Source: Shewanella vesiculosa | GTDB taxonomy: Bacteria; Pseudomonadota; Gammaproteobacteria; Enterobacterales; Shewanellaceae | Direction: 5' to 3' | DNA: 64,000 nucleotides | NCBI RefSeq assembly: GCF_021560015.1 | Contig: NZ_CP073588.1 | Coordinates: 2,232,001 to 2,296,000 of the forward strand | Part shown: piece by piece, positions 9,970-60,633 of the stretch | Layout: every line of letters starts with the position of its first letter | Position numbering within the stretch: the first letter of the stretch is position 1 | Translations under genes and position numbers: made by a program | Notes under the pieces: model-generated | What the model was told of the DNA's origin: nothing | Seen by the model: the letters and a program-made list of their open reading frames with translations, nothing else | Databases searched by the model: none

Positions 9970-10604
9970 CTACGCCAAATCTCCGTTAATAAGCGGCACA
10001 AATTTAACCGCCTCAATAATCTCAGATTGGAATGATTGTCCAATACGGGTAATTTTGAGTAATTGTTGGATGTCTTCTCCAACAGGAATAATTAAAACTC
10101 CATGTTCAGCTAATTGTTCAAGCAAGGCTTGAGGCACTGTTGCCGCAGCAGCAGTCACCATAATGCCATCAAATGGACCGCGATTTGGCCAACCTTGCCA
10201 ACCGTCACCGTATTTAAATGACACATTATGTAAATCGAGACGCTTTAAACGTTGCCGAGCTTGTATTTGCAATGCCTTTATTCGCTCAATAGTACAGAGC
10301 TCAGGAATTAATGACGCTAAAACGGCAGCTTGATATCCTGATCCTGTACCAACTTCGAGCACTTTTTGAGGTTGGTGCTGCATTAACAGCTCTGTCATTC
10401 GAGCAACGATATAAGGCTGTGAAATAGTTTGTCCCTGCCCTATAGGTAACGCGGTATTTTCATAGGCTTTATGCTAGCGCACCATCAAGAAACATCTCTC
10501 GTGGTGTAGTCGCGACAGCATGCAATACTGCAGGATCTTTAATTCCTGCCTCCGCCAACTTTTTGGCCAAATTAAGTGCTGATGTTGATGCTACCCCGGG
10601 TCAT
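9970..10604 (-). pseudogene. pcm: protein-L-isoaspartate O-methyltransferase, two frame breaks
   Basis: SAM-dependent repair methyltransferase that acts on isoaspartyl residues in aged proteins. The start ATG at 10604 overlaps the surE stop as ATGA. Two indels break it: one extra G in CCCGGGG at about 10594-10597, and two missing bases near 10472, where GCATAAA replaces the expected GCA CAT AAA. Removing one and restoring the other gives exactly 211 residues, the family length. The downstream part is readable from 10398 as 142 residues and holds the SAM motif [27 protein letters not shown] spans that ATG. As written the protein cannot be made whole. Sequencing error is as likely as true inactivation. 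Confidence 0.85.
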
Positions 10605-11350
10605 ATTTTTATTATCCAATCGGCTAATCCATCAAGTTGATTGTATGCTGTTAAGTCAACGGTTAGCGGAGTTATCGAAACATAACCTGCTGCGACTGCA
10701 CCAAAATCAGTTCCATCACCCGCATCTTGTTCACTGCCAACTGGCCCGAGCCAGTATATATCTTTACCCGCTGGATCTTGGGTTTTTATCATACCTTCAG
10801 CTTTATGCCTGGCCCCCAGACGGGTGACTTTAATCCCTTTAATTTGTGTTAAAGGCAAATCAGGAACATTAACATTTAAAATTTGATCGCGGCTAATTGG
10901 GTGAGACAGTAAACCTTTTACGATTTTCACGGCATAAATTGCAGCGGTATCATAGTGAACGAGTGATTTACCCGCCAGTGATATAGCAATAGCGGGTAAA
11001 CCTAAAAAACGCCCTTCCATGGCTGCTGCAACAGTACCAGAATATAAGGTATCATCGCCCATATTCGCTCCGGCATTAATACCAGAAACCACAATATCGG
11101 GCTCGACATCACAAAGCTGTCTAATCGCAAGATGGACACAGTCTGTGGGTGTGCCGTTAACAGAAATACAGCCGTTATCTAAGTTATTAATTCTTAATGG
11201 ATTAGTCAAGGTTAATGAGTTACTTGCTCCCGAGCAATTACGATCAGGTGCAACCGTTAATACTTGCGCAAACTCACTCAGTGCCTGGCTTAACGCAATA
11301 ATACCGGGTGCATTAACACCATCATCATTACTGACTAAAATATTAATCAT
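10601..11350 (-). CDS. surE: 5'/3'-nucleotidase SurE
   Basis: Metal-dependent nucleotidase and exopolyphosphatase linked to stationary-phase survival. 249 residues, full length. The N-terminal metal site [13 protein letters not shown] is intact, as are the [10 protein letters not shown] and [13 protein letters not shown] motifs. It starts three bases after the truD stop and overlaps pcm by four bases, so truD-surE-pcm read as one unit. Confidence 0.98.
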
Positions 11351-11353
11351 TCA

Positions 11354-12427
11354 TTAACACTCTTCATTTGTTTTAGCTTGTTGATCTGCAACCATCACTT
11401 TTCGCTGTGACTCTTGGACATCTTGATAATCAACCAGTTCACGAAGCACTGATGTAGCATAACTCCCTGCTGGTAATATAAATTCAAGTGTTAGCGTATC
11501 GGCGTCAAATTGCCATTTCATTCCTTGAGGTTCAAGCAATAAAGGCCGTCTTTCTTGTGACAAACCCGCTTCTTCGAGGCCCTGAAGATCAGCTGAAAAT
11601 TCGGCTAACGGCATCATTTCTACTGCTAATGCATCACCTTGTGCTAATGGTGTTCCCCTGCCCCACAATGGTGCTGCAAGTTGAATATCTTTTTCTGCTA
11701 AACGAGTTGTCAGAACGTCATCCCAAGCTTCCACAGTAAAATAGCTTTTACTGCCGGCTAACATCACACAATCGCCTGTTAATGTCTCGATATGATGATT
11801 GGCGAGGCGAAATGACACCACTTGGTTAAATATATTGGAACGCACAGCCGATAAATACATGCTGCGTTTGTGACGATCTTTTATATTTCGACCACCACTG
11901 AGCATTTGTCGGCCTAAGATAAGGTTTTTACCATCATGGCCAAAACGTTGTTCACCAAAATAATTAGGCACACCCAGTTTAGCAATCTGCTGTAAACGCA
12001 TGTCAACATCGGTAGCATCAGTAATATTTCGTAATGTCAGCACAAACCGGTTGCCAAGTAATGCGCCTATACGCAGTTTTTTGCTATGACGGCTACTCGA
12101 TAAAATCGTTAGCTTTTCATCATTTAGCTGAGCCCACTCTGGTGTTTCTTTACCAGGAATGCGGATCCCGAACCATTGTTCAGTAATGGCATTTTTGTCT
12201 TTTTGGCCAGCATAAGTCACTTCTTTTGGATGAACCTTAGCAAATTTAGCTAATATCTCAGCAACATAAACCGTATTCATGCCATTTTTGCGCACGTGGA
12301 GCATATGATGTTCACCTTCGCCAGTTGGCGTAAAAGGCAAAATTTCTTGGACAATAAAATCACTGTTATGGGTACGTAAATCAGCTTGGCTTATTGGTTT
12401 ACCAAATAGGTAATGTAATTCTTTCAT
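11354..12427 (-). CDS. truD: tRNA pseudouridine(13) synthase TruD
   Basis: Makes pseudouridine 13 in tRNA-Glu. 357 residues, close to E. coli TruD (349). The catalytic Asp lies in TYAGQKDKNAITEQWFGI (about residues 75-92), and the family signatures GNRFVLTLRN and NYFGEQRFGHDGKN are present. Packed between ispF (28 bases) and surE (3 bases). Confidence 0.97.
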   Translation of the reverse strand: MKELHYLFGKPISQADLRTHNSDFIVQEILPFTPTGEGEHHMLHVRKNGMNTVYVAEILAKFAKVHPKEVTYAGQKDKNAITEQWFGIRIPGKETPEWAQLNDEKLTILSSSRHSKKLRIGALLGNRFVLTLRNITDATDVDMRLQQIAKLGVPNYFGEQRFGHDGKNLILGRQMLSGGRNIKDRHKRSMYLSAVRSNIFNQVVSFRLANHHIETLTGDCVMLAGSKSYFTVEAWDDVLTTRLAEKDIQLAAPLWGRGTPLAQGDALAVEMMPLAEFSADLQGLEEAGLSQERRPLLLEPQGMKWQFDADTLTLEFILPAGSYATSVLRELVDYQDVQESQRKVMVADQQAKTNEEC

Positions 12428-12455
12428 GTGACAGAACTCTCTATATATTTTTAGG

Positions 12456-12935
12456 TTATTGGCTCTTCATCAACACAACAGCTTCAACGGCAATGCCTTC
12501 TTTACGCCCAGTAAAACCAAGTTTTTCGGTGGTCGTCGCTTTTACATTAATATTATCGATATCGGTTTGTAAATCGACACTTAAACACTGACGTATCGCT
12601 TCAATATGAGGCGCCATTTTAGGTGCTTGCGCAATAATAGTCACATCGAGGTTACCTAAAACAAACTGCTTTTGCAGTGCAAGTTGATAGCAATGTTTCA
12701 ATAACTCTCGGCTATCTGCACCAGCAAAATTAGCATCGGTATCAGGAAAATGTTTACCTATGTCGCCTAATGCCATCGCACCTAATATGGCATCGCTAAT
12801 AGCATGCAGAACGACATCACCATCAGAATGAGCTATCAGCCCACTTTCATAAGGCACCGTAACCCCGCCTAAAATAAGCGGGCTGTCACCGCCAAATTTG
12901 TGTACATCAAAACCATGACCGATACGAATATTCAT
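12456..12935 (-). CDS. ispF: 2-C-methyl-D-erythritol 2,4-cyclodiphosphate synthase
   Basis: Fifth step of the MEP isoprenoid pathway, releasing CMP to form the cyclodiphosphate. 159 residues, the normal length. Zinc-site GHGFDVHKF at the N-terminus, [18 protein letters not shown], the [10 protein letters not shown] loop and C-terminal [19 protein letters not shown] are all present. Directly downstream of ispD, the usual pairing. Confidence 0.98.
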
Positions 12936-12998
12936 TTCAAAACCTTACGTTAACTGACTATCAGGTGATATTAACGACTCGAGCTAAATCTGTTAAAT

Positions 12999-13697
12999 TT
13001 ATTGTTGTGACATAAACAAAACTGCCAATTGTAAATCATCTGGATGAGTCACTTTAATATTATCCACCCGACCACTGACCAACCCCGGCATAACACCAGC
13101 CCATTCCATAGCACTGGCTTCATCTGTAATAGGGGCCTGCGCCGCTAATGCTGCTGATAAATGGCGGCGTAAAATTGATGCTGGGAAAAATTGTGGGGTG
13201 AGCGCATGCCATAACAAGGTGCGATCGACAGTATTAACAATATGACCACTGGCATCACTGCGCTTCATGGTGTCACGAACCGGTGCCGCCAAAATAGCGC
13301 CTTGAGGATAAATGTCTACAGACTCAATTAATCGACTGATATCGGTTAGGGTAACACAAGGCCTGGCGGCATCATGGACAAGCGCCCACGCGTCTGGATG
13401 ATGACTATAAACATAGTCTAATGCGGCTAAAACTGAGTCGGCACGCTCTCCACCACCCACAACTTGGATTAACTTAGGATGCTGAGATTGCGGTAATTGG
13501 CTGAAATAATGATCTTGTGGATGCAATGCAACAATGACTTGTTCTATTTCAGGATGAGCGAATAATGTATCTAATGTATGAGCGAGAATACTTTGTTGAC
13601 CAAGCATTAAATATTGCTTAGGTTTGTCAGCACCCATGCGGCTGCCAATACCTGCAGCAGGTACAATAGCGAAAATAGAACGAGGATTGTTGCGCAT
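12999..13697 (-). CDS. ispD: 2-C-methyl-D-erythritol 4-phosphate cytidylyltransferase
   Basis: Third MEP pathway step: CTP plus MEP gives CDP-methylerythritol. 232 residues. The nucleotide-binding loop PAAGIGSRMGADKPKQYL is at residues 13-30, WALVHDAARPCV at about 102, and the C-terminal DNIKVTHPDDLQLA motif is intact. Operon order ftsB-ispD-ispF-truD-surE-pcm is typical of gammaproteobacteria. Confidence 0.98.
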   Translation of the reverse strand: MRNNPRSIFAIVPAAGIGSRMGADKPKQYLMLGQQSILAHTLDTLFAHPEIEQVIVALHPQDHYFSQLPQSQHPKLIQVVGGGERADSVLAALDYVYSHHPDAWALVHDAARPCVTLTDISRLIESVDIYPQGAILAAPVRDTMKRSDASGHIVNTVDRTLLWHALTPQFFPASILRRHLSAALAAQAPITDEASAMEWAGVMPGLVSGRVDNIKVTHPDDLQLAVLFMSQQ

Positions 13698-13759
13698 ATT
13701 AGCAGTACCAAGATTGAAAGTAATATGATTGAGGGTTATACCTGCAGTACCACATAAGG

Positions 13760-14062
13760 TTAACGATTAAATTGGTTGCGTTCACGCAGCTCACTGCCTA
13801 CAACTCGATAAAACGTCTCGCCTTCTTTAACCATACCTAACTCGTTACGGGCACGTTCTTCAATGGCTTCTGTGCCACTTTTTAAATCAATAATTTCTTC
13901 TTTAAGGATTTGATTTCGAGCAACAAGCTTGTCATTACTTTGTTCTTGCGCCGCGATTTGCGTTTGCAAGACGACATATTCTGAAAAGTTGTTATCGCCC
14001 TGCCAAAGCCGGTACTGTAAAAGTGATAATAAACAAATCAATAAAAATATTAGTTGTTTCAT
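13760..14062 (-). CDS. ftsB: cell division protein FtsB
   Basis: Small single-pass inner-membrane protein that binds FtsL and FtsQ in the divisome. 100 residues: a membrane segment at about 3-18 (LIFLLICLLSLLQYRLW), then a coiled coil (about 30-65), then the conserved RARNELGMVKEGETFYRVV region. First gene of its block, separated from eno by a strong terminator. Confidence 0.96.
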   Translation of the reverse strand: MKQLIFLLICLLSLLQYRLWQGDNNFSEYVVLQTQIAAQEQSNDKLVARNQILKEEIIDLKSGTEAIEERARNELGMVKEGETFYRVVGSELRERNQFNR

Positions 14063-14116
14063 AATATTAAGTTATGTCGAAGTAACCCCTAGAAAATATG
14101 ACTGTTATAGTACAAC

Positions 14117-14145
14117 AAAAAAGGCCACCAAGTGGTGGCCTTTTT
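14117..14145. terminator. bidirectional terminator between eno and ftsB
   Basis: GGCCACC and GGTGGCC form the stem around loop AAGT, flanked by six A and five T, so it has a U-tract in either direction. Its role is to end the eno transcript on the minus strand. Confidence 0.9.
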
Positions 14146-14162
14146 AAGCTAAAGCAAAAATA

Positions 14163-15491
<1,329 letters not shown>

Positions 15492-15706
15492 TTAAAAAAT
15501 TAAAAGAAATAAAAAGTTAATACCAATAAAAATACATACAACACTAAAAACAGTAGACTTATTGGTATATAACTTTCAGTTCTGTAATTTAAATTCGAAT
15601 ATCACTTAGGATAAATCGAATTAGACTTTGCATCAACTTAGTTTTGACTACTGTGATACAAGATTGAGGCTATTATTTGATCTAACGCAAGTATCGTGCA
15701 TAAAAA

Positions 15707-15732
15707 AGCCGCTAATGCATGCATTAGCGGCT
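15707..15732 (-). terminator. pyrG terminator
   Basis: A 26-base perfect palindrome (AGCCGCTAATGC and its complement) preceded on the plus strand by AAAAAA, which gives the U-tract on the minus strand, seven bases after the pyrG stop. Confidence 0.88.
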
Positions 15733-15738
15733 AGTTCA

Positions 15739-17424
<1,686 letters not shown>

Positions 17425-17490
17425 CTAGGACGGGGCGATATTATAGCAAAGCCACCTCGTTTCGACAAACTTAAACGCGCTAATTTTAGC

Positions 17491-18312
17491 TTAATTTATG
17501 TTTTCGTGTTGTTTTACACGATTCCAGTAGTGGTCTAATTGCTCTAAGCTGTGTTGCTCTATTGGTTTTCCACTTAGGGCAACACATTGTTCAACCCCTC
17601 TGAATCGCCGTTCAAATTTATGATTGGCTTGACGCAATGCTTGCTCGGGATCAACCTTTAAGTGGCGCGCAAGATTGACCACTGCAAACAATAAATCGCC
17701 CATTTCATCGACTATTCTCGGTTGATAAAAATCAGGATCTTGATGTCGTTGATTAACTTCTACCAGTACTTCATCGATTTCTTCATGTATTTTAGCCACC
17801 ACAGGCTCAAGCTCGGCCCAATCGAACCCCACTTTTGCCACTCGATGTTGTATTTTTCGTGCTCGACTGAGTGCCGGTAATGCGTGAGGAATATCATCTA
17901 AAGCGGAATGCAGTTGCTTTTGCTGACGTTCTGAGGCTTTTAATTTATCCCAGGCTTGGCTTAAATCATCGGTATTGGTGATTGCCGCAGGTGCTTGGGT
18001 TTCTGGTTGGCCAAACACATGGGGATGACGACGAACCAACTTATCACTAATACGCTCAATCACTGTGGCAAAGTTAAACATGCCTTGCTCTTGGCCTAAT
18101 TGGCAATAAAACACCACCTGAAATAATAAATCACCCAGTTCATCAGGTAATTCCTGCCATGCTTTGCGCTCAATAGTATCCACTACTTCATAAGCTTCTT
18201 CTAAAGTAAAAGGCACTATCGTTGTAAAGTCTTGGGCAAGATCCCACGGACATCCTGATTTAGGGTCGCGCAATTGCTGCATAATGGTCAATAACGATTG
18301 AATATCTGCCAC
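17491..18312 (-). CDS. mazG: nucleoside triphosphate pyrophosphohydrolase MazG
   Basis: Hydrolyses NTPs and dNTPs to the monophosphate and pyrophosphate. I start at the GTG at 18312 (VADIQSLLTIMQQLRD), which has GAGGA at the right distance, giving 273 residues (E. coli 263). Two MazG repeats: first with DPKSGCPWDLAQ and EEAYEVVDTIE, second with EIDEVLVEV and EMGDLLFAVVNLARHL. It lies just downstream of relA, the same link as in E. coli where MazG tempers the stringent response. A terminator hairpin separates the two. Confidence 0.95.
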   Translation of the reverse strand: MADIQSLLTIMQQLRDPKSGCPWDLAQDFTTIVPFTLEEAYEVVDTIERKAWQELPDELGDLLFQVVFYCQLGQEQGMFNFATVIERISDKLVRRHPHVFGQPETQAPAAITNTDDLSQAWDKLKASERQQKQLHSALDDIPHALPALSRARKIQHRVAKVGFDWAELEPVVAKIHEEIDEVLVEVNQRHQDPDFYQPRIVDEMGDLLFAVVNLARHLKVDPEQALRQANHKFERRFRGVEQCVALSGKPIEQHSLEQLDHYWNRVKQHENIN

Positions 18313-20627: not shown

Positions 20628-20819
20628 GAACCCTTCCTTAGCCGCATGACCGACTGACAGACATTCAACCATATTGCCACATATAAAACTGTGTTTGTAT
20701 GGCGCTAACAATAACTAAACGACCTATCTTGAAGCTCTACATACGTTTGTCAATTTAATCGCGTTTAGTTGAACAAATTTTTAGCATACCTAAGTTCCGA
20801 TATCGCTAAAACGGCCTGT

Positions 20820-22286: not shown

Positions 22287-25144
22287 ATGAAAAGTGCCAA
22301 CAATATGACCAAATACAGCCTACGCTCTTGGGTTCTGGTACTTGCGTTAGCACCCACTATTGTCGTGGGTATTCTACTTGGAAGTTATTTCACGATAAAC
22401 CGCTTTTATGAATTGGAACAAACCTTAATTGAAAAAGGCAGTAACATTGTCGAACCGTTAGCGATTGCCAGTGAATTTGGCATTATTAATCAAGACCGTG
22501 AATCAACTAAACTTTTACTCGCCGCTTCACAGATAAACAATGCATCCCTAATCCTCTCCATCGCTGTTTTTGATGCCAAAAACCAACTCTTTGTGACATC
22601 GCACTATCACAAAGATTTTGAAACCATGCGTTATAAGCAACCTTTGGCTAACTTGGTTGGAACAGAGCATGAAACCATTGGCGATACCTTAGTCATTCGA
22701 GTGCCAATAATATCTCATACTGGCTTAGAACTAAAACCGGTTGCCAACATCAATCGCCAGAATGACACTAATACCGATAATGCGTCGGCAAACAATGGCA
22801 TGATTGCGCCGATTTACAACAACCAACAAGAAAAAATACTCGGCTATATTTCGGTATTATTAAACAAAGAAAACGCTCTGCTTGAACAACATAGAGCAGC
22901 AATAGCCGCATTTATTATCGTGTTGATTGGCGTACAGTTTAACTTATTTTTCACTTTCCGTTTAGTCAAATATGTTAACTACCCCATTACCGAAATGGTG
23001 CGAGTTGTTGCCAAAATTCGTGAAGGTAAACTCGATACTCGCCTTGAAGGAAATCTGATTGGCGAGCTCGATCTGCTTAAACGGGGTATCAATGCAATGG
23101 CAGGATCATTGTCTGAATATCACGATGAAATGCAGCAAAACATTGATCAAGCAACCTCAGATTTACGCGAAACCCTTGAACAAATTGAAATTCAGAACGT
23201 AGAACTCGATATAGCTAAGAAACGAGCGCTTGAAGCAAGCCGGATAAAATCAGAATTTTTAGCTAACATGTCGCATGAGCTTCGTACCCCACTTAATGGT
23301 GTCATAGGTTTTGCAAGACAGCTGTTAAAAACGCCACTGCATACCAGCCAGCTCGACTACATTAAAACTATTGAACGCAGTGCCAGTAATTTATTAGGGA
23401 TTATCAATGACATTCTCGACTTCTCAAAACTAGAAGCCGGCAAAATGGTATTAGAGAAAATGCCATTTGCATTGCGTGAAACCCTTACCGAAACCTTGAC
23501 CATTATTGCCGGAAGTGCTCAAGAAAAAGGCCTAGAATTAGTCATTGATATCGATGCCAATGTTCCTGAAAGCGTCAGTGGTGATGCCATGAGAGTGAGT
23601 CAAATTATTACCAACTTAGTCGGTAACGCCATCAAATTTACCGACAAAGGCAGTGTGATACTCAAAATCCACTTAGTGGGTCAGGACGACGATAATATTA
23701 CCTTACGCTGCGAAGTTATTGATACTGGCATTGGCATTGATGAAAGTCAGCAAGAGTATCTATTTCAGGCATTTGGCCAGGCAGACTCATCGATTTCTCG
23801 CCGCTTTGGTGGCACTGGATTAGGTTTAGTCATTACCAAACGCTTAATTAACCAAATGGGCGGCCAAATAGGCTTTACCTCTGCGCCCGATAAAGGCTCA
23901 AACTTTTGGTTTATTTTACCGCTGGGGATCAGTCAATTTGAGATTGGTGAAGTACTGCCGGTGGATGTATTGCAACATAAATCAGTATTATTGTATGAAC
24001 CACGAGAATTAACTCGCGACACTCTTAACCGTCGCTTAGTGTCATGGCAATTAATTATCACTAGTGTTGCCAATCCCGAAAACCTGACGTCGGTTTTGCA
24101 AAGTAAAAACAGCAAGTTTGATTACATCATCATTAGCTGTCATGGGTTTGCAGACAACGCAGCCTTTATCCATTTGTTACAACAAGCCAGACAGCATACT
24201 GACTGCCTTATTTTATTGCATGACTGTCTAGACCAAGACATGATAATCAATGTACTAAAAGTCAATGCAGATGTATTGCTCAACACTCCGGTTAGCGATT
24301 TTACCCTAGCACATCATTTAATCTATCCTCCAATGCCGTCAACCTTAGTGGCTTTACCTGAACAAATAAACCATGAGATTAGCAAACGCCAAAATGCATC
24401 CGTATTAGCCGTTGACGACAATATGGCCAACCTAAAGCTAATTGATACCCTACTCAAAGAGTTGGTCGATAATGTGGTCACAGTCAATAACGGCGCGGAT
24501 GCGATAAAACAAGCAAACACACAAGTGTTTGACTTAATCTTTATGGATATTCAAATGCCAGGCACAGATGGCATCCGCAACCAAACAAATTCGTTCAGGA
24601 TCTCTCAATCGAAATACGCCGATTATTGCCGTTACTGCACATGCTATTGCAGAAGAACGTGAGAACATATTAGCCAGTGGTATGGATGGTTTCCTTCCCA
24701 AACCTATTGATGAACTGTCACTAAAAAGCGTTATCAGTCGATGGATAATTAAACCGCAATTCACCCATTTTGATACTCATGTGCTCAATTGGGATTTATG
24801 TTTAACCCAGGCCAATCAAAAAACAGATTTAGCATTAGACATGTTAAAGATGCTAGTTAACTCATTACCTGAAACCACCGCAACGATTAATGAGGCATTA
24901 ATTGCAAAAAAATGCCGAGGTACTTGTGCAAGCGGTGCATAAACTGCATGGCGCAACATGTTATTGCGGTGTACCTACGACACAAAAACTGTGCCGGGAT
25001 ATTGAGTCAGCATTAAAGCATAAAATTGCCATTGATGACTTAGAACCTGAAATACTAGAGTTACTTGATGAGTTAACTAAGGTAGAATCAGCAGCAAATC
25101 AAGTCATAAACCAGCTATCAGTGGATATACCCCATGACCAGTAA
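22287..25144 (+). pseudogene. barA: hybrid sensor histidine kinase BarA, two frame breaks
   Basis: Membrane sensor of the BarA/UvrY system that controls Csr small RNAs. Order: TM1 (about 14-34), periplasmic domain, TM2 (about 205-225), HAMP, DHp with SHELRTPLNG (His near residue 330), HATPase, a second domain, a receiver with FMDIQMPGTDG, and HPt with HKLHG. Two indels break it: near 24575-24579 two bases seem missing (expected ATC CGC GCA, matching E. coli DGIRA), and A7 at 24906-24912 has one A too many. Corrected length is 952 residues. The end overlaps the yjaG start by 11 bases, supporting the corrected frame. As written the product stops just after the receiver Asp and lacks HPt. An alternative start is ATG 22305 (MTKYSLRSW), closer to E. 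coli. Confidence 0.88.
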
Positions 25145-32897: not shown

Positions 32898-34001
32898 TTA
32901 TTCAGCTATATAATCAGTCACTTCTAAACCGAAACCCGACAGTGAATGGTAACGTTTTGGTGAGCTTAATAAGCGCATAGTCGTAACACCTAAACTCGAC
33001 AGAATTTGCGAGCCTACACCAACACGACGAGATGTTCCTTGCCACATTGCTGGCGCTGGAGATTGACCATTGTCTTCAGCTTCGAACGCTTTGACTTTGG
33101 CCAATAAGTTACTTGTATGTTCATCATTACCCAGCAACACTAAAACACCACCTTCTAAAGCAATCCTTTCCATGGCTTTTTCTAATGGCCAACTGCGCTT
33201 TTGATCACGTTCAGAATGCAGTAAATCATTGAAGGTGTTTTGTAAATGAACACGCACCAAACAATTTGATTTTACTTCATCTTTAATCAAGGCGTAATGT
33301 AATTGATTATCGATAGTGTCTCTAAAGGTCACCATAGTAAACTCACCAAAACGAGTAGGTAATTTACTGAGCTTCGCGAACAACTGTGGTTTCGTTGGTA
33401 TTACGGTACTCAATCAAGTCGGCAATAGTGCCTATTTTAATGCCATGTTTTTCACTGAATATTTCTAAATCCGGACAGCGAGCCATAGTGCCATCCTCGT
33501 TTAATATTTCAACTATCACGCCTGAAGGTTCACATCCTGCTAAGCGCGCGCTAAATCGCAACCCGCTTCGGTATGGCCAGCACGAGTTAATACCCCGCCT
33601 TCTTGCGCCATTAATGGAAAAATATGTCCAGGCTGAACCAAATCAGAGGCTTTAGCATCTTTAGCAACGGCAGCTTGAACTGTTACAGCACGATCATGGG
33701 CTGAAATACCTGTGGTCACCCCAGTTGCTGCTTCAATTGAAACCGTAAAATTAGTTGAAAACTGGGCGTTATTGTTGGTCACCATTAAAGGTAAGTTAAG
33801 CTGCTGACAACACTCTTTGGTCATGGTTTGGCAAATTAATCCGCGGCCATAAGTGGCCATGAAGTTGATTGCAGCTGGCGTCACTTTATCAGCGGCCATA
33901 ATCAAATCGCCTTCATTCTCTCTGTCTTCATCATCCATCAAGATAACCATCTTGCCTTGACGAATATCTTCAATGATTTCTTCTATGCTATGTAGCGCCA
34001 T
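32898..34001 (-). pseudogene. ribBA: bifunctional RibBA, two compensating frame breaks
   Basis: DHBP synthase (RibB) plus GTP cyclohydrolase II-type domain (RibA) for riboflavin synthesis. RibB half has [16 protein letters not shown] and [16 protein letters not shown]. Two indels: an extra GC dinucleotide in the tract at 33544-33551 (expected [10 protein letters not shown]), and a two-base loss near 33371-33376 just before KLPTRFGEF. They offset each other, and the corrected protein is 367 residues. The segment between them is readable as 33364-33561. The RibA half, as in many Shewanella-type RibBA proteins, lacks the Cys-rich zinc motif of true GTP cyclohydrolase II (no GDVFGSxRCDCG seen), so it may be catalytically RibB only. 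No other ribB copy is visible here. Confidence 0.85.
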
Positions 34002-36603: not shown

Positions 36604-37852
36604 TTAACCGTATACAGGGAATCGAGCACATAATGCCAACACTTGACCTTTCACTCGTTCAGCCACTTCGGCATTAGATGCATCATCAAGAATGTCACAA
36701 ATCCAGCCGGTTAACTCTTTCTGCTTCTTTAAAACCACGACGAGTAATTGCTGGTGTTCCAATACGAACACCAGAGGTGACGAACGGTGAACGTGGATCA
36801 TCAGGTACTGAGTTTTTGTTCACGGTAATGTTGGCATTGCCCAATGCAGCATCTGCTTCTTTACCCGTTAAATCACGGCCAATTAAATCAACCAACATTA
36901 AATGGTTTTCTGTACCGCCAGAAACAATTTTGTAACCACGATCTAAAAACACACTTACCATAGCTTTAGCATTTTTAACAACTTGCTGTTGATATAGTTT
37001 AAACTCTGGCTCTAATGCTTCCTTAAATGCAACCGCTTTACCGGCGATAACATGCATTAAAGGGCCACCTTGGCCACCAGGGAATACCGCTGAGTTCAAC
37101 TTTTTATATAAGTCTTCATCATTAGCTGCAGAAATAATAATACCGCCACGTGGACCAGCCAATGTTTTATGGGTTGTTGAGGTCACAACGTGTGCATGAG
37201 GCACAGGCGTTGGATAAACATCTGCAGCCACTAAGCCAGCAACGTGAGCCATATCAACAAGCAAATAAGCACCAACTTTATCAGCAATCTCACGCATTTT
37301 AGCCCAATCGACTATGCCTGAAAATGCCGAAAAACCGCCGATCATCATCTTAGGCTTGTGCTCAATAGCTAAGCGTTCCATTTCGTCATAGTCAATTTTA
37401 CCTGACTCGTCGATGCCGTAAGGAATGATGTTGTAAAGCTTGCCGGAAAAGTTAACTGGTGAACCGTGAGTTAAGTGACCGCCGTGGGCTAAGTTCATAC
37501 CTAATACAGTGTCACCTGGCTTTAATAGCGCCATAAATACCGCACTGTTAGCTTGTGAACCAGAATGAGGCTGCACGTTGGCATATGTGGCACCAAATAA
37601 TTCTTTTGCGCGTTCAATCGCTAATGTTTCAACCACATCAACGTATTCGCACCCACCATAGTAACGCTTACCTGGATAACCTTCAGCATACTTGTTAGTT
37701 AACTGAGAACCTTGCGCTTCCATCACACGTGGACTGGTATAGTTTTCAGATGCAATCAATTCAATGTGTTCTTCTTGACGACAAGTTTCATCTTCAATGG
37801 CTTTAAATAATTCTGGATCATAATCCGCAATATTCATCGCTTTCTTCAACAT
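36604..37852 (-). pseudogene. glyA: serine hydroxymethyltransferase, one frame break near the C-terminus
   Basis: PLP enzyme that interconverts serine and glycine and loads tetrahydrofolate with one-carbon units. Residues 1-378 match E. coli GlyA closely (start [15 protein letters not shown] Lys in [15 protein letters not shown]), then the frame runs off at KEAE near 36717-36723. The rest ([13 protein letters not shown] to CARFPVYG, 38 residues) continues in another frame to 36604. A loss of two or five bases fits; five would restore the E. coli-like EAEAKEL and 417 residues. As written the product ends as a 385-residue protein with a wrong tail. The gene is normally needed for growth on minimal medium, so an error in the sequence is likely. 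Confidence 0.9.
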
Positions 37853-52030: not shown

Positions 52031-52294
<264 letters not shown>

Positions 52295-52331
52295 CACTGA
52301 CAACGCATGTTAGTCATACCGTAGTCAGCAT

Positions 52332-52367: not shown

Positions 52368-52542
52368 GAGTCATTTAGCGGCATAAGTCATGCTCAAAAA
52401 TCATTGCAATCATAAAGACTGACTCACCTTCTGAGTAAATTGAAAAAGATGATAAATTTCATTTTGTTATCTTTATTTATGTGTTTATTTGCTCTGTTCT
52501 AAAATCATTACATTAAAATAGTATCAGACTAATTGAGCGAGC

Positions 52543-53523
52543 TTAATCTGTGGTACAACTTGCATTATCGGACATTTTTTCTATGTCATTTTGTGTGTTG
52601 AGTATGTTGCTATCTTCGGGTTGTAATTGAAGTGCTTTTTTGATCATCTCCATTGCCCTCTGTTTACAACCAGACACAGACAAACTGTAAGCGTAATTAT
52701 TTAAATAAGCGCCCTGTTGCTCAGGCTGTTGCGCGCTATAATTTAATCCCTGTTGATACCAAAAAGTAGCCTTGGCGTTATCTATTGCTAAATAATAATT
52801 TCCAAGCAAAAAATAGCTTAGCCAATAGTCAGGCCATTGTCTGGTGGCATTTTCAAGCGCATTTATGCCGGCAGTACTTTCGCCAACACTGAGCAAATCT
52901 TGGGCGGCGCTGGCGTAAATAAACCGGTCGAAATGTGAACTCTTGATATCCGGCGGCACAACAGCCAATAACCAATATTGGCCTCGCAACCAGGTGCGTT
53001 CAAATACTTTAAGTTCCGCGATACGGTTTTTATGGCTGCCAGAATGGAGCACTACCTGCTGATTATTAAGGTCATAGCCAGTTACCACTGCGTAATGCCA
53101 CATGGGATACCATGAGGTTGATAAATTTTGTAGCACTATGACCGGAATGTTTTCACTGACCAAAGACAGAAGTTGGGTCAAGTTGCCTGATTCAGCATAA
53201 GCAAGCAGCCCCTGTTGACGGGCTGCGGCCACCATTTCAATTTGCAAGCTGCCTTGTAAATCAGGAATAAACAGTGCTGGTGCTATTTGCTGAGGTGTTT
53301 TGGTTAGCCCATAAAAATTGAACACTTCTGAGAGTGTTGTAGGACCACAGAAGTAATCCTCTTGAGGATAAAAAGGAACCCCAGTAATTTGATGTTTAAG
53401 GGAAATATCGGGCGGATTAGCTAATAACATGGCTGTCTGGGGCGGAACCGATAGACAGCCACTGAGAAATAAACAAAAGCCAGTAATACCAACGGCTTTT
53501 GTGAACCAGCTTATGTGACTCAT
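52543..53523 (-). CDS. PA2778-family C39-like cysteine peptidase lipoprotein with TPR region
   Basis: 326 residues. Lipobox LSGC at the end of the signal peptide predicts an outer- or inner-membrane lipoprotein facing the periplasm. The C39-like domain (about residues 45-190) has the catalytic Cys in DYFCGPTTLSEVF and the His in MWHYAVVTGYDL, followed by an Asp/Asn. The C-terminal third has TPR-like helices (YWLSYFLLGNYYLAIDNAKATFWYQQGL). This is the PA2778 family of Pseudomonas; no function has been shown that I know of. It follows its partner by 15 bases, an operon of two. Confidence 0.88.
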   Translation of the reverse strand: MSHISWFTKAVGITGFCLFLSGCLSVPPQTAMLLANPPDISLKHQITGVPFYPQEDYFCGPTTLSEVFNFYGLTKTPQQIAPALFIPDLQGSLQIEMVAAARQQGLLAYAESGNLTQLLSLVSENIPVIVLQNLSTSWYPMWHYAVVTGYDLNNQQVVLHSGSHKNRIAELKVFERTWLRGQYWLLAVVPPDIKSSHFDRFIYASAAQDLLSVGESTAGINALENATRQWPDYWLSYFLLGNYYLAIDNAKATFWYQQGLNYSAQQPEQQGAYLNNYAYSLSVSGCKQRAMEMIKKALQLQPEDSNILNTQNDIEKMSDNASCTTD

Positions 53524-53538
53524 ACTTGAAAATACGAC

Positions 53539-53919
53539 CTAGTTAATGGGCCTAATAAAGGAAAACACATCGGTAACGCCCACCAAATCGAGAACCACTA
53601 ACACCACTAATACAGTGACCACAACTCCTACTACGCCACCAGCAGCCGCAGGCATATCATTCATTTGGGTGTTTAATTGGTTTAATTCCTGATCCGTCAT
53701 GCTGGCGATCCGCATTTCTGCATCCTCCATACTAACGCCAAGTGCTACCAGTTTATTTTGAACGTCAACGTTACTCAGCATTGCAATGACTTGTTGTTTA
53801 TTATAAATATTTTTCTGCTGAACGATAACCTGCTCTGAGGAAATAACCCCAGCGTAGGTGGTCGAAATACAAGTCAAATAAGCTAACATTACTGTGGCGA
53901 CTGCAAGAACTTTTTTCAT
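53539..53919 (-). CDS. PA2779-family small membrane protein
   Basis: 126 residues: Sec signal peptide (cleavage near TYA-G), a helical soluble part, then a double glycine at 94-95 preceding one strongly hydrophobic helix (about 96-118) and a short tail ending FIRPIN. The MTDQELNQL stretch (74-82) recalls the Leu/Glu-Leu pattern of double-Gly leaders. First gene of the pair with the PA2778-like peptidase. Confidence 0.86.
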   Translation of the reverse strand: MKKVLAVATVMLAYLTCISTTYAGVISSEQVIVQQKNIYNKQQVIAMLSNVDVQNKLVALGVSMEDAEMRIASMTDQELNQLNTQMNDMPAAAGGVVGVVVTVLVVLVVLDLVGVTDVFSFIRPIN

Positions 53920-54322
53920 TGGATTTCCTTTGATTGAGCGAATGTAAATATCTTATTAACAGTAGAGTTAATGCTGCGTAATAACAAGGTATATCGAGAT
54001 TATAGACATCAGATTATTTATATCATCGCGCAGAGTAAAAGCTGACATCATTACAGCCCAAAGATGACTGTATCTGAACCATACTTCTCCACGCCAGCTT
54101 ATAGGTTAATTGACGCCATTGAGCGCATTACTCCAAACTAACGCCTATAGCGCGATAAGATCGATCACTGATTGAATCTACTCTACTCACGGTTAAATGA
54201 TAACGTCAGGATTTGCGCTTGTATCTCATCTTGATTCGCTAATATTGAGCATCTAATCTTATGTTCCTAGCATCGGCAAAACGGCGCAAAATGCGCCGTT
54301 TTTCATGGTCAAACAAGCAAAA
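53920..54322. other. spacer upstream of the PA2779-like gene and after ubiT
   Basis: About 400 bases between two minus-strand genes. It holds the ubiT terminator at its right end and no credible ORF. Confidence 0.6.
54278..54302 (-). terminator. ubiT terminator
   Basis: AACGGCGCA and TGCGCCGTT (extended by A-T pairs) around AAA; on the minus strand the sequence ends in TTTT. It is 20 bases after the ubiT stop. Confidence 0.85.
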
Positions 54323-54832
54323 CTATTCACAGGGTCTTAACATGTGGAGCATTTTTGCCAGTTGCTCGATGCCGATCTGAGCGGGTTTGGGTAAGTTATC
54401 TAATTCAATAGATAACAATAGATTTTTAACTTGTAACCCTAACTCAGTATCCCCTTCTATACGTAATTTACGTTGAAAAAATAAGGTATCAGGATCTTCT
54501 ATCCCCGCGGCCACTAATATCAATTCCGGCACATTGGCACTTAAAGTCACATCAGGCTGAGTAAACGATCGTACTTGTAATTGTTGAGCAATCCCCACCT
54601 CAAAACGTAAACCAATATCATCAACACAAATCCCCACCCACTTGTGTTTGAGAAAATCGAGTTCATCAGACTGCAATTGTTCAGCTAACACTCGATTAAG
54701 CAGTGTATTGATCGCGGCTATTTTTAATGTTTCTGGCATGACACTGAGCGAGCTGCGACTAACCTGAGGTGCGAAATGCAATACCTTTTGCGCTAAGTGT
54801 TGCGATAATTGTTGTGATAATGCCTGAGTCAT
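54323..54832 (-). CDS. ubiT: ubiquinone biosynthesis accessory factor UbiT (SCP2 domain)
   Basis: 169-residue SCP2 sterol-binding-type protein (E. coli YhbT) required for O2-independent ubiquinone synthesis, where it is thought to bind the isoprenoid quinone intermediates. The SCP2 fold region includes WVGICVDDIGLRFEVGI and DVTLSANVPELILVAAGIEDPDTLFFQRKLRIEGDTELGLQVKNLL. Divergent from ubiU by 140 bases, so both likely share a regulatory region. Confidence 0.93.
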   Translation of the reverse strand: MTQALSQQLSQHLAQKVLHFAPQVSRSSLSVMPETLKIAAINTLLNRVLAEQLQSDELDFLKHKWVGICVDDIGLRFEVGIAQQLQVRSFTQPDVTLSANVPELILVAAGIEDPDTLFFQRKLRIEGDTELGLQVKNLLLSIELDNLPKPAQIGIEQLAKMLHMLRPCE

Positions 54833-54971
54833 CGAGAGTACCTACTTGCAAATAGAGCCAATAATCAAGTGAGTTTACTGGTAATTTATCTAACGAAACC
54901 TGTTTTAAATCAAATCATGTTAACTCAATCACATTTACACTCCTGTTCTTTGAAAAAATGAGAACACCAAT

Positions 54972-55973
54972 ATGGAACTCTTATGCCCCGCCGGTAATTT
55001 AGCGTCACTCAAAGCCGCGCTCAATGCCGGTGCTGATGCGGTTTACCTTGGACTAAAAGATGACACCAATGCGCGTTCGTTTGCAGGATTAAACTTTTCT
55101 GCCCCACAGCTAGCTCAAGCGACTCACTTAGCCCATAACCAAGGCCGAAAGGTGTTTTTAACCCTAAACACCTTCCCTAAACCCGGTGAGGAACATCGCT
55201 GGTATCAAGCAGTTGATTTAGCCGCACAATTAGAAATGGATGCGCTTATCGTTGCCGATTTATCATTACTCGATTATGCCCACCAGCATTATCCACACCT
55301 TCCGTTGCATTTATCGGTGCAAGCGAGTGCGACCAACCTCGGAGCGCTGTCATTTTACCAACAAGCTTTTAATATTGAACGGGCTGTATTACCACGAGTG
55401 CTGTCAATAAAGCAGGTTCGGGATTTAGCGAAAGTCAGCTCTGTTGATCTGGAAGTCTTTGCGTTTGGTAGTTTGTGCATCATGGCGGAAGGACGTTGTC
55501 ATTTATCATCATATGTTACAGGTCAATCCCCGAATACCGGTGGCTCATGCTCTCCCGCGAATCATGTTCGCTGGCAAGACAGTGGCAGTGATAAATTAAC
55601 CAGACTGAATAATGTGTTAATCGATAAAGCCGATGCGAGTCAACAACTGGGCTATCCCGTGGTCTGTAAGGGTCGATATGTTGCTGAATACGATCAAGAT
55701 GCAAAATATTTACTCGAATCACCCACCAGCTTAAGCACCTTAAGCTTATTACCTGAACTCGCTAAAGCGGGCATCAAATCACTCAAAATTGAAGGACGTC
55801 AGCGCAGCCCTGCTTATGTAAGTCAAGTGACCCACGTTTGGCGCAGTGCTATCGACACTTATTTGGCCAATCCCGATTCGTTTTGCGAACAACCACAATG
55901 GACGCAAGCATTGGCTAAAGTATCCGAAGGACAAATCACCACATTGGGCGCTTATCAGCGTCAATGGCAATAA
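54972..55973 (+). CDS. ubiU: O2-independent ubiquinone hydroxylase subunit UbiU
   Basis: U32 family, 333 residues (E. coli YhbU 331). Starts MELLCPAGNLASLKAALNAGADAVYLGL. The 4Fe-4S ligands are expected in GSLCIMAEGRCHLSSYVTG, GGSCSPANH and VVCKGRY. Forms a heterodimer with UbiV that hydroxylates quinone precursors with prephenate as oxygen donor under anoxia. Nine bases separate it from ubiV. Confidence 0.95.
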   Translation: MELLCPAGNLASLKAALNAGADAVYLGLKDDTNARSFAGLNFSAPQLAQATHLAHNQGRKVFLTLNTFPKPGEEHRWYQAVDLAAQLEMDALIVADLSLLDYAHQHYPHLPLHLSVQASATNLGALSFYQQAFNIERAVLPRVLSIKQVRDLAKVSSVDLEVFAFGSLCIMAEGRCHLSSYVTGQSPNTGGSCSPANHVRWQDSGSDKLTRLNNVLIDKADASQQLGYPVVCKGRYVAEYDQDAKYLLESPTSLSTLSLLPELAKAGIKSLKIEGRQRSPAYVSQVTHVWRSAIDTYLANPDSFCEQPQWTQALAKVSEGQITTLGAYQRQWQ

Positions 55974-55982
55974 GGTTACAGA

Positions 55983-56930
55983 ATGAAAATATCTCTTGCT
56001 CCAATTAGCTACTGCTGGTCAAAACCTGACGTTGAGCTTTTCTATCAACAAGTGGCTTTAAGTCATATCGATACTGTTTACTTAGGTGAAACCGTGTGCA
56101 GTCGTCGCCGCGAACTCAAGTTTAACGACTATCTTGATCTGGCGAATATGCTTAAGTCTCATGGTAAACATGTGGTGTTATCGACCATGGCACTAATAGA
56201 AGCACAATCAGAGCTCAGTGAATTAAAAAAAGCGATTGAGAATGGTGACTTTAGTATTGAAGCTAATGATATGGCGGCAGTACATTATGCACAGCAAGCC
56301 AAAGTTGCTTTTGTGTGCGGACCAATGATTAATAATTACAATCGGGCCAGTCTGGATTTACTGCATAAAAAAGGCATGTTCCGTTTTGTTATGCCATGTG
56401 AGTTATCTCAACAGTGGTTAAGTCGTATCATCAATCAAGGTGATAAACCCAAGTTTGAAATTGAAGTGCTCGGCCACGGCTATATGCCGTTAGCTCTTTC
56501 AGCGCGCTGCTTTACCGCTAAGCATTACCAGTTACCGAAAGATAAATGCCAAACGATTTGCCAACGCCACAGCAAAGGTTTATTGGCTCAAACTCAAGAG
56601 TCGCAGCCCTTATTACGCTTAAATGGCATTCAAACTCAATCAGCGGCACAAATAAACCTGATTAACCAAATTCCCCAGATGATCACCATGGGAGTGGACT
56701 ATTGGCGGATTTCACCCAACAAATTAACCGATATTGACTTGGGTTCTGAGCTTGCCAGCGCACTACAACAGGTAACAAACGACCCATTTAATACTGAAGA
56801 ACTATTCAATCAACAATTTAATCACAAGCAGCATACTGCAATCATTCATCATCATTGCAATGGTTACTGGTTCGGATTGCCGGGCATGGACTATCGCCAA
56901 GAGAACCAAGAAACTGTGTTTCCGTCATAA
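55983..56930 (+). CDS. ubiV: O2-independent ubiquinone hydroxylase subunit UbiV
   Basis: U32 family, 315 residues, partner of UbiU. Cys ligands can be placed in GETVCSRRRE (near residue 39), SARCFTAKHYQLPKDKCQTICQRH (near 180, 193, 197). AAGG before the ATG. With ubiT and ubiU this gives a complete anaerobic ubiquinone route. Confidence 0.95.
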   Translation: MKISLAPISYCWSKPDVELFYQQVALSHIDTVYLGETVCSRRRELKFNDYLDLANMLKSHGKHVVLSTMALIEAQSELSELKKAIENGDFSIEANDMAAVHYAQQAKVAFVCGPMINNYNRASLDLLHKKGMFRFVMPCELSQQWLSRIINQGDKPKFEIEVLGHGYMPLALSARCFTAKHYQLPKDKCQTICQRHSKGLLAQTQESQPLLRLNGIQTQSAAQINLINQIPQMITMGVDYWRISPNKLTDIDLGSELASALQQVTNDPFNTEELFNQQFNHKQHTAIIHHHCNGYWFGLPGMDYRQENQETVFPS

Positions 56931-56943
56931 AAACTCAGCCGAT

Positions 56944-56997
56944 TGCCATTAATGCAACCACTCATAATAATGATAATATTCATGTTCATTAATGGCA
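56944..56997. repeat. inverted repeat after ubiV
   Basis: TGCCATTAATG and CATTAATGGCA are perfect complements separated by 32 bases. No T-run follows, so it may be an operator or an extended hairpin. Confidence 0.5.
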
Positions 56998-57175
56998 TAC
57001 AAGCGACTTAAAAACTCACACACTCAAAGATGAAACACTCCAGAAACAAATCATTAACCAAATGATTATATTAGTTATTTATCATGTATAACATTATTCC
57101 CGCAAAGTAAATATCTACTCATATTTAACTAATATCTATTCGATTAAGTTATCATTTTACATACAGCAAAGAAGG

Positions 57176-57262
57176 GGGTAACCTTGCCTACCCAAAAAAC
57201 ACAACTGAATGGACATTCAATCTCTGTCCATAAGAAACAGTTGGATAGCCAAGCTGGCCAAC
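57176..57262 (+). promoter_or_regulatory. possible structured 5' leader (three hairpins)
   Basis: Hairpin 1 pairs GGGTA (57176-57180) with TACCC (57189-57193). Hairpin 2 pairs TGGACA (57210-57215) with TGTCCA (57225-57230). Hairpin 3 pairs GTTG (57240-57243) with CAAC (57259-57262) and inner GCC with GGC. The ribosome-binding site AAGGTG follows about 15 bases later. Stems are short, so this is tentative. Confidence 0.35.
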
Positions 57263-57291
57263 TTACAGCAAATACGTAAGGTGTATTTAAC

Positions 57292-58644
57292 GTGACACAC
57301 AAAAAACATAACATTAAAACAATTCTTACCTTTATCATTCCGTCACTGATTGGTTTGTTACTGTTTATGACGCCTATCACTGTCAATGGTTCGATTACCA
57401 TCCCAATTGCAATCATTTCAAAAGCATTGCAAAACCAAATGGGCAGTTCGATTCAGCTTATTGTGACCTGCATCGTTGTATTTATGGCAATAGCCTCATT
57501 GCTCACCCAGCTTATGAATCCTAAATTTGTGCGTAAAAATATTTTTTTACGCACCTTATTAAAAGTAAATTTATTTTGGTTAGCCGTGCGGATATTAGGC
57601 GCGGTCTTTATTGTCATGGTTTATTTGCAGATGGGACCTGATGCGATTACTTCATCGGCAACGGGTGGTTTAGTCTTAAATGATTTAGTGCCAGTACTAT
57701 TTTCAGTCTTTATCTTTGCAGGCATGTTATTGCCGCTATTACTCAATTTTGGTTTATTGGAGTTTTTTGGCACGTTATTAACCAAAGTGATGCGTCCAAT
57801 ATTCAATTTACCCGGACGCAGTGCGATTGACTGTATGGCATCCTGGTTAGGTGATGGCAGTGTGGGTATTTTAATGACCACCAAACAATACGAAACCCGT
57901 TTTTACACGGCACGAGAAGCAGCCGTTATTGGTACCACTTTTTCAGCGGTATCGATAACTTTCAGTCTAGTGGTTATATCGCAAGTAAAACTTGAGCACT
58001 TGTTTGTACCATTCTATCTCACTGTGTGTTTGGCAGGATTTGTCGCCGCTATCATAGTGCCGAAATTACCGCCGTTATCATGGAAAAAAGATCTGTATAT
58101 CGACGACACCCCACGCCATGAAGATGATGAAACAATTCCTGCCAGTCACGGTGTCTTTTCATGGGGATTTGAACAAGCAATGCAGCGAGCATCCTCTGCT
58201 GGTGGCATTAAACATGTCCTAACAGAAGGGATTAAAAACGTTGTTGATATGATTTTTGGGGTAATTCCAGTCGTTATGGCTATTGGTACCGTAGCGTTAG
58301 TGCTCGCTGAACATACACCAATTTTTAACTACTTAGGTATGCCATTTATTCCACTGTTAGAGCTACTACATATTCCTGAAGCCACTGAAGCCTCAAAAAC
58401 AATTGTGGTAGGATTTGCCGATATGTTTATTCCATCTATATTGGCCAGCTCTATTGAGTCTGACTTAACCCGTTTTGTCATTGCGGCATTATCTGTCACT
58501 CAGCTTATTTATATGAGTGAAGTGGGTGCTCTTTTGATTGGTAGTAAAATTCCGGTGAACTTTTTTGAGTTGTTCGTTATCTTTATCCTACGGACATTAG
58601 TAACGCTTCCTATTATTGCATTAATGGGCCATTTACTGATTTAG
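57292..58644 (+). CDS. YjiH family inner-membrane protein (nucleoside-recognition domain)
   Basis: 450 residues, starts at GTG with AAGGTG nine bases upstream. About ten hydrophobic segments. The family signature with Gly/Asp-rich FNLPGRSAIDCMASWLGDGSVGILMTTKQYE sits near residues 175-205, as in spore-maturation-type gate domains, and a second copy-like half follows GFADMFIPSILASSI. Function of YjiH is not firmly known; a nucleoside or amino-acid-derived substrate transporter is plausible. A strong terminator follows. Confidence 0.85.
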   Translation: MTHKKHNIKTILTFIIPSLIGLLLFMTPITVNGSITIPIAIISKALQNQMGSSIQLIVTCIVVFMAIASLLTQLMNPKFVRKNIFLRTLLKVNLFWLAVRILGAVFIVMVYLQMGPDAITSSATGGLVLNDLVPVLFSVFIFAGMLLPLLLNFGLLEFFGTLLTKVMRPIFNLPGRSAIDCMASWLGDGSVGILMTTKQYETRFYTAREAAVIGTTFSAVSITFSLVVISQVKLEHLFVPFYLTVCLAGFVAAIIVPKLPPLSWKKDLYIDDTPRHEDDETIPASHGVFSWGFEQAMQRASSAGGIKHVLTEGIKNVVDMIFGVIPVVMAIGTVALVLAEHTPIFNYLGMPFIPLLELLHIPEATEASKTIVVGFADMFIPSILASSIESDLTRFVIAALSVTQLIYMSEVGALLIGSKIPVNFFELFVIFILRTLVTLPIIALMGHLLI

Positions 58645-58680
58645 TAGGCGCAACTAAACATAACATCTTAATATCAACTC

Positions 58681-58704
58681 AGGAGCGCATTGCGCTCCTT
58701 TTTT
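58681..58704 (+). terminator. terminator after the YjiH-type gene
   Basis: AGGAGCGC and GCGCTCCT pair around ATT and are followed by a T-run. Confidence 0.92.
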
Positions 58705-58802
58705 ATACAAAATATTCTCTGCGTAACCGAGATAAATCGAGTATGCTTAACAAATAAGCATTGGCTATGTACCATAGCCATATTGATGACTAAGGGTGAA
58801 CC

Positions 58803-59169
58803 ATGGACAACAGACGTAAATTTTCTCGTATTTTATTTGCAGCCAGTGCGCATCTTGCGCAAACAGAACAAACTTGGCGCACTAAAATTTTAGATTTAAG
58901 TCTCAATGGCGCTCTAGTAGAACTGCCAGCAGGTTATACTGGTCAGCTACATACCATTTTAACCTTAGCGTTTGTGTTAGCCGATTCTGATATTGAACTG
59001 CACATGGAGGCGGAAATTGTTCATAAGACCCCAGAACATCTTGGGCTTAAAATGCACTCATATTGATGTTGACAGCATTACTCATCTGCGCCGTATTATC
59101 GAACTCAATATGGGCGATGCAGAATTATTAGATCGTGAGCTTACCTCGTTAATCACACCAGTTCCTTAA
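58803..59169 (+). pseudogene. small PilZ-domain protein, one frame break
   Basis: Single PilZ domain that would bind c-di-GMP: RRKFSR holds the Arg motif and DLSLNGALVEL the DxSxxG motif. The frame as written ends at 59066 (87 residues, HLGLKMHSY), but dropping one A from AAAA at 59049-59052 continues it as [15 protein letters not shown]... to 59169, giving 121 residues, the size of related proteins. AAGGGTG precedes the ATG. Likely cytoplasmic. The shortened form would keep both ligand motifs but lose the C-terminal helix. Confidence 0.85.
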
Positions 59170-59193
59170 GCTTGCAGATAAACCATGAGATGT

Positions 59194-59224
59194 AAAAAAG
59201 GTAAGCCAATGACTTACCTTTTTT
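59194..59224. terminator. bidirectional terminator between pilZ and radA
   Basis: AAAAAAGGTAAG and CTTACCTTTTTT form a 12-base-pair stem; both strands have the U-tract. It serves the convergent pilZ and radA genes. Confidence 0.92.
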
Positions 59225-59254
59225 ATACCAATAGCCCGCTGTATTACTCGAAAA

Positions 59255-60633
59255 TTAATTAATCAGCTCAAGTAACTCGTGGATAGTTTTAACTGGGATG
59301 ATTTTTGCGCCGAGCCCTTCCATGGTTTTATGATAATTACGAAATGGAATAAAAATCTCCGTAAAACCATGCTGCGCAGCTTCTCTCACTCTGGGCACTC
59401 CGCTATCAATTGGGCGCACATCACCATTCAAGCTCAACTCACCCATAATACAAGTGGTTCTTGGCACCACAAAGTCATTTAAACTGCTCAATAATGCTGT
59501 CACAAGCGCTAAATCGATACAGGTTTCTGACTCATCAATTTTTAACCCACCAACGATATTAAAAAATGTGTCGTGGAATATTTTGGTTTTAGTATGTTTA
59601 CGCAAAATACCGGTTAACATTTTAATCCGATTCATGTTTAACCCCACACATACACGCTGGGGAAATTCTGATTCAGTTTCAGTTGTTAAACATTGGATTT
59701 CTAATAGTAAATTACGGTTACCTTTACGAATACAGGTAATAGTCGAGCCAGGTGACTCTGTAGTAGAACCCGATAAGAATATCTCACTGGGATTATCTAC
59801 GCTCACCATACCGCGTTCGCTCATACGGAATATGCCCACGGTATCAACATCACCAAAACGGTTTTTATTGGCGCGCAAAGTGCGAATTTGACCATCATTA
59901 GTGTCGATATGTAACAGTGAATCCACGATATGCACTAAGGTTTGCGGTCCAGCAATTTCGTTATTTTTATTCACATGAGCAATAATGAACATGGTGACAT
60001 TATTTTTTTTACAATATTGCGTAAATGCCTGCGCCGCCGTTTTAACTTGTGAAGGCGATCCAGGGCTGCCATTGGCGGCATCAGTGACGACCGCTTGAAT
60101 AGAGTCAATCACCGCAAACTTGATTTGCTTGGCTTCTAATTCCTCAATAATAGCTTCTACACTGGTTTCAGACAGCAAAAACAAGTTATCTTCGTTGTAA
60201 TGAAGCTTTAAACGATTAACTCGGTTTTTAAACTGCGATAATGACTCTTCTGCAGTACAGTATAATGATGCCATCGACTGTGACATTCGGGCCACTAGAT
60301 CAGATAACAAGGTCGTTTTACCTGCGCCAGGATCACCGGAAATAATATTCACCGAGCCCGTGGTTAAACCACCGCTAAGCACTCGGTCTAATTCACCGAT
60401 CTCAGTAAGTCTTTTTTTCAGCATCCTGTGACTCAACTTCACTGAGTTTTTTTGAACCACCACCAGCAGCACCGGCGTATCCCAATACCGAAGTACGAGA
60501 AGTAGTGTTTTTTTGTGGCAGATAATTTCATTTCCACTAAAGAGTTCCACGCACCACAACGACACTGTCCCTGCCAACGAGGATAATCTAGGCCGCAATC
60601 GTCACAAACAAATGCCATTTTTGGAGCTTTTGC
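59255..60633 (-). pseudogene. radA: DNA repair protein RadA, two frame breaks
   Basis: RecA-like branch-migration ATPase with a Lon-like C-terminal domain. Start MAKAPKMAFVCDDCG at 60633. Domains: zinc finger (CDDC...CRC, spacing CxC in the second pair rather than CxxC), Walker A GDPGAGKTTLL, the RadA motif KNRFG, then the Lon-like part. Two A7 runs, 60508-60514 and 60412-60418, each carry one A too many; with six A the protein is 458 residues (E. coli 460). As written the N-terminal piece ends after 64 of its own residues and the main ORF lacks a proper start. The core sequence is clearly divergent from E. coli RadA. Confidence 0.85.

Follow-up and report, generated by a model that had tools for sequence, protein, structure and literature searches.

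Frame breaks in six genes of a Shewanella vesiculosa genome are very probably uncorrected consensus errors

Does a bacterium really carry six conserved genes, each split by small insertions or deletions (indels), within 64,000 nucleotides of its genome, or does the deposited sequence misreport an intact organism? The question is raised by bases 2,232,001-2,296,000 of Shewanella vesiculosa contig NZ_CP073588.1 (assembly GCF_021560015.1), hereafter the window, in which pcm, barA, ribBA, glyA, a PilZ-domain gene and radA are each interrupted. The genome holding the window, designated G000, is a single contig of 4,782,877 bases with a completeness of 99.97%. A first-pass annotation made from the letters of the window had counted about ten frame-breaking indels in these six genes and had favored sequencing or assembly error as their cause. 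Comparison with relatives, within the window and well beyond it, leads us to the same answer: the ten breaks are very probably uncorrected consensus errors of the deposited assembly.

To choose relatives, we searched the relA region in 129 genomes of the genus and found the best match in genome G067, at 87% nucleotide identity on one contig. A fragment of BarA compared with genome contigs likewise fell in Shewanella, the closest of the 80 loci kept being from S. ulleungensis (89% amino acid identity), in a scan that may leave out records very near G000. In a protein search with a radA fragment, a Shewanella saliphila cluster, 96% identical across 87% of the query, ranked best among the 120 matches listed out of 344; because this search ran on 90%-identity clusters, it could not have revealed the gene in other isolates of the species. 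From each of five relatives (G067, G099, G083, G085 and G049) we extracted the segment syntenic with the window, and aligned its open reading frames (ORFs) of at least 100 codons to the window by BLASTN. The alignment bore out the proposed count, with ten frame-breaking gaps in six genes: two each in pcm, barA, ribBA and radA, and one each in glyA and the PilZ-domain gene. The genes and their breaks are as follows.

9970..10619 (ends approximate), minus strand: pcm, protein-L-isoaspartate O-methyltransferase, by family search of the relatives' proteins; +1 at a G4 tract near 10594 and -2 near 10472.
22287..25144 (ends approximate), plus strand: barA, hybrid sensor histidine kinase, by family search; -2 near 24575 and +1 at 24900-24906.
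32898..34001, minus strand: ribBA, DHBP synthase / GTP cyclohydrolase II, by Pfam on the G099 orthologue; frame broken by one gain and one loss, +2 in a GC repeat at 33545-33551 and -2 at 33365-33367.
36604..37852 (ends approximate), minus strand: glyA, serine hydroxymethyltransferase, by family search; -5 at about 36720-36722, near codon 377 of 417, leaving the final ~40 residues out of frame.
58803..59170 (end approximate), plus strand: PilZ-domain gene, Pfam PF07238; +1 at about 59039-59043, near codon 81 of 121.
59255..60660 (end approximate), minus strand: radA (sms), by NCBIfam TIGR00416 on the G067 protein; +1 in A7 tracts near 60412 and 60506, at about codons 79 and 48 of the 463-codon G067 ORF.

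Alignment to a close relative had been proposed as a check, and the relatives that aligned have open frames here: the seven breaks in pcm, barA, ribBA and glyA were seen against all five relatives, and the three in the PilZ-domain gene and radA against four, G049 giving no row at these two genes. Intact products of family length had also been predicted, and the relatives' ORFs have them, at 216 codons for pcm and 974 for barA (both from upstream starts), 367 for ribBA, 417 for glyA, 119-121 for the PilZ-domain gene and 463-467 for radA. By size the ten breaks comprise five gains of one base, three losses of two, one gain of two and one loss of five. The first-pass annotation had placed all of them at short repeats, which holds in part. 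The repeats are clear at the pcm G4 tract, both radA A7 tracts and the ribBA GC repeat, and the single-base gains in barA and the PilZ-domain gene can be placed near an A7 and at a G3, respectively; at the three losses of two bases and the loss of five, inspection by eye shows a repeat that is imperfect or none that is evident. Additional gaps towards ORF edges (2721, 4564, 13756, 20659, 34778, 41537, 47506 and 47897), each seen against just one or two of the five relatives, were left out of the count. At 20659 the difference amounts to four bases, close to the 5' end of the relA ORF, and is seen against two of the five; it probably does not break relA, lying upstream of where most relA matches in the genus begin.

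We next asked how these breaks compare with the rest of the genome. G000 was scanned against G067 in three regions, one of 464 kb that contains the window and two of 200 kb each, around rpoB and mutL respectively, a sample of 864 kb out of 4.78 Mb. A usable match was obtained for 556 of 723 G067 ORFs, the other 167 being dropped where no match covered 60% at 72% identity, and an event was scored as inner when a frame-breaking gap lay more than 60 nt from both ends of the reference ORF. This rule removes the pcm event near codon 9, so that the window contributes nine inner events against G067 although ten are seen. Across the 556 genes, which make up 550,196 aligned bases, 57 ORFs carried a total of 71 inner events, or 1.3 per 10 kb. 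The region in and around the window held 38 in 272,535 bases (1.39 per 10 kb), and the two distant regions held 21 in 137,080 (1.53 per 10 kb) and 12 in 140,581 (0.85 per 10 kb). Density is similar in all three regions, which makes the window typical of the sampled genome; the breaks are not special to it. Relatives compared with one another over the window region gave only 8 events in 677,785 bases, or 0.12 per 10 kb, in twelve comparisons that share genomes and so are not independent; each comparison yielded 6-10 inner events with G000 as target versus 0-2 between relatives. In the reverse scan, of G000 ORFs against G067, 13 of 19 events mirrored those already seen, and the other six fell in five short ORFs (one of 221 amino acids, one of 100 with two events, one of 165, and two of 126 with the same local sequence).

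The argument turns on the identity of the broken genes. When 40 of the 57 broken ORFs were put to NCBIfam, with E-value limits from 1e-20 to 1e-60, 29 were given a family; the PilZ-domain gene and ribBA were named by Pfam. In G000, rpsL, rplD and rpoC were each recovered solely as two fragments lying in different frames; the rpoC break is at no tract. The first ~63 residues of parE are in one frame and the remainder in another. A search of G000 for a second intact copy of any of these four genes, which covered them and not the other broken ORFs, found none. Two further parE-family matches fell below the family cut-off within one 810-codon frame, which we read as gyrB. By contrast with G000, in G067 rpsL, rpoC, rplD and parE are each a single open frame above the family cut-off. 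Other broken ORFs in G000 include those of dnaK, lptG, guaB (two breaks), prfC, argG, serB, moaA, moeA, ppc and astD. To our knowledge, every bacterium requires ribosomal proteins S12 and L4 and the beta' subunit of RNA polymerase for growth, and parE is essential in gammaproteobacteria. Essential genes found in a single copy are thus broken in the deposited sequence; short of a bypass of these breaks, that sequence cannot be faithful to a growing cell's genome at the sites in question.

Breaks in distant parts of the genome, with indispensable genes that lack a second copy not spared, are what consensus error predicts, and the wider genome in this way strongly backs the earlier preference for error. 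Under this reading, the sequencer or assembler would have miscounted bases, most often adding one in a homopolymer and less often altering one or two bases elsewhere, and the consensus would have been left without correction by accurate reads. We infer that the breaks arose in the reads or the assembly and not in the cell, and the rest of the genome would be expected to look alike. The living strain then most likely has intact pcm, barA, ribBA, glyA, pilZ and radA.

The spectrum of the events is in keeping with such miscounting. By size, the 71 comprise 41 gains of one base, 9 losses of one, 9 losses of two, 5 gains of two and 7 others. Of the single-base gains, 33 adjoin a homopolymer of at least four bases, versus 17% of random positions. 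Counting tract lengths as they stand in G000, we found single-base gains at 0 of 4,425 A/T tracts of four, 1 of 1,524 of five, 3 of 478 of six, 11 of 124 of seven and 2 of 26 of eight or more; for G/C tracts the figures were 6 of 831 at four, 3 of 110 at five, 6 of 18 at six and 1 of 5 at seven. Gains thus increase steeply with tract length, as expected of errors in homopolymers.

Some published assemblies show similar damage. The Kastor paper (PMC12007338) puts errors at below 0.05% of the genome in long-read assemblies and reports that correction cut the pseudogene rate from 23.3 to 5.6%. The insufficiently polished assemblies that it and Homopolish (PMC8011154) address resemble G000 in that small indels, many of them at homopolymers, split genes whose reference copies are whole, and comparison with those references brings the indels to light. 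Homopolymer miscounts are also described for 454 and Ion Torrent data in passages of PMC6742220, which advise PCR and Sanger sequencing for putative frameshifts; there too miscounts can give false frameshifts in coding sequence, though these passages give neither direction nor rate.

Several points weigh against consensus error. The steep increase with tract length would equally fit real slippage; miscounting and slippage are told apart here by the essential genes rather than by length dependence. In the Pss508 nanopore example of PMC12007338, most false indels are deletions, whereas G000 is led by single-base gains (41 of 71). Without normalization, events per 10 kb in five bins of increasing gene conservation run 1.85, 1.27, 1.54, 1.33 and 0.71, the last bin being genes of at least 90% identity. 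Tract content predicts 5.5, 14.6, 22.1, 17.6 and 11.3 events in the same five bins, where 7, 13, 24, 19 and 8 were observed. Selection as an explanation of the low rate in the most conserved genes mostly disappears once tract exposure is counted (8 observed, 11.3 expected), and there is no strong sparing of conserved genes; that shortfall leaves room for a few real, selected losses. Some of the events, although kept within the 71, are probably not errors. One precedes the rplN domain, in an extension of the N terminus, and another, with a net change of -34, reflects poor alignment of a 154-amino-acid ORF. The third case is a 260-amino-acid G067 ORF (L145:8581-9363; about 2,445,200 in G000), which has four frame-breaking differences and may be a divergent gene or a true pseudogene, unlike the rest.

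The first alternative to consensus error is real gene decay, as in a recently host-restricted symbiont, with the six genes as young pseudogenes. The breaks are specific to G000, pcm, barA, radA and pilZ are dispensable in other bacteria, and the 260-amino-acid ORF may, if a true pseudogene, be an instance of such decay. Decaying genes would, however, gather nonsense substitutions as well. In a scan that halts at the first frame break of a gene and skips codons within 45 columns of a gap, we found 19 stop substitutions in 161,173 G000 codons, of which 17 lay within 20 codons of an ORF end and were set aside; just two, both in one ORF among the 556 genes, were at least 20 codons from both ends. 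Controls gave 6 inner stops in 165,952 codons in the reverse scans and 0-2 between relatives, so that G000, with inner stops in a single gene, does not exceed them. Nor is the genome reduced, at 4.78 Mb and 99.97% completeness, and essential genes are not spared, rpsL, rpoC, rplD and parE being broken as well. Decay confined to the window is rejected on the breaks in distant regions and in essential genes, and decay in general is very improbable.

Equally improbable is a hypermutable strain deficient in mismatch repair, in which replication slippage would make real indels at short repeats. Homopolymer gains with a strong dependence on length could also come from slippage without repair. The first-pass annotation had read mutS as intact, and so it proved, at full length and with no gap against the relatives:

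4813..7419, plus strand: mutS, by NCBIfam TIGR01070 (profile positions 1-839 of 840), the repair control.

The mutL frame (633 codons) and the mutH frame (236 codons) are open too, so that all three mismatch-repair genes checked (mutS, mutL and mutH, not uvrD or dam) are open and full length. Single-base gains outnumber losses 41 to 9, where more balance would be expected of slippage, and broken copies of rpsL, rpoC and rplD are incompatible with growth. A literature search on hypermutators with homopolymer decay found no paper.

It is still less probable that the breaks are real but bypassed, with transcriptional slippage or ribosomal frameshifting restoring the proteins. Some sites are A7 or T7 tracts, and slippage at poly(A) tracts occurs in insect endosymbionts. 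The sites are, however, heterogeneous: they include changes of +1, -1, +2, -2 and -5, some are in G/C tracts, and the rpoC break is at no tract. No common slippery motif or stop at the site, conserved in relatives, was found among them, and at each of the ten window sites the relatives that aligned have an open frame. Between a break and the following stop codon the median distance is 6 codons, with 16 of 70 within two codons, which resembles chance; random positions gave medians of 5 codons for gains and 9 for losses, with 30% and 20%, respectively, within two codons. Compared with the poly(A) frameshifts of insect endosymbionts, G000 is alike in having single-base tract changes in coding genes and unlike in also having G/C-tract, two-base and non-tract breaks in a genome that is not reduced. 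Papers that mention such slippage include PMC3017870 and PMC5009743. Least probable of all is the fullest form of this idea, that a very large number of genes in the living strain, rpsL and rpoC included, are truly out of frame and are tolerated through routine frame restoration at short repeats during transcription or translation, which if true would make it a free-living bacterium with genome-wide frameshift tolerance.

Two stretches of G000 were noticed in passing. About 40 kb (~2,151,200-2,191,200; L125-L127, e.g. L126:2799-17809) lacks a long counterpart at the syntenic position of G067 and carries P2-type phage genes for capsid, scaffold protease, baseplate J, tail fibre and minor tail protein; it looks like a prophage. 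A further ~55 kb (~2,354,700-2,409,700; L132-L135), likewise lacking a long syntenic counterpart in G067, has type I-like restriction and N6-methylase genes together with genes for RND efflux and a Tn3-type transposase, and looks like a genomic island.

If consensus error accounts for the breaks, its reach is wide: at 1.3 per 10 kb of aligned coding sequence, rough extrapolation, an estimate and not a count, gives ~500 false frame breaks genome-wide. It would be unsafe to base conclusions about gene loss, pseudogenes, essentiality or hypermutation on this assembly, despite its 99.97% marker completeness. For the biology of the strain itself the breaks carry no weight, as the organism very probably has all six genes intact.

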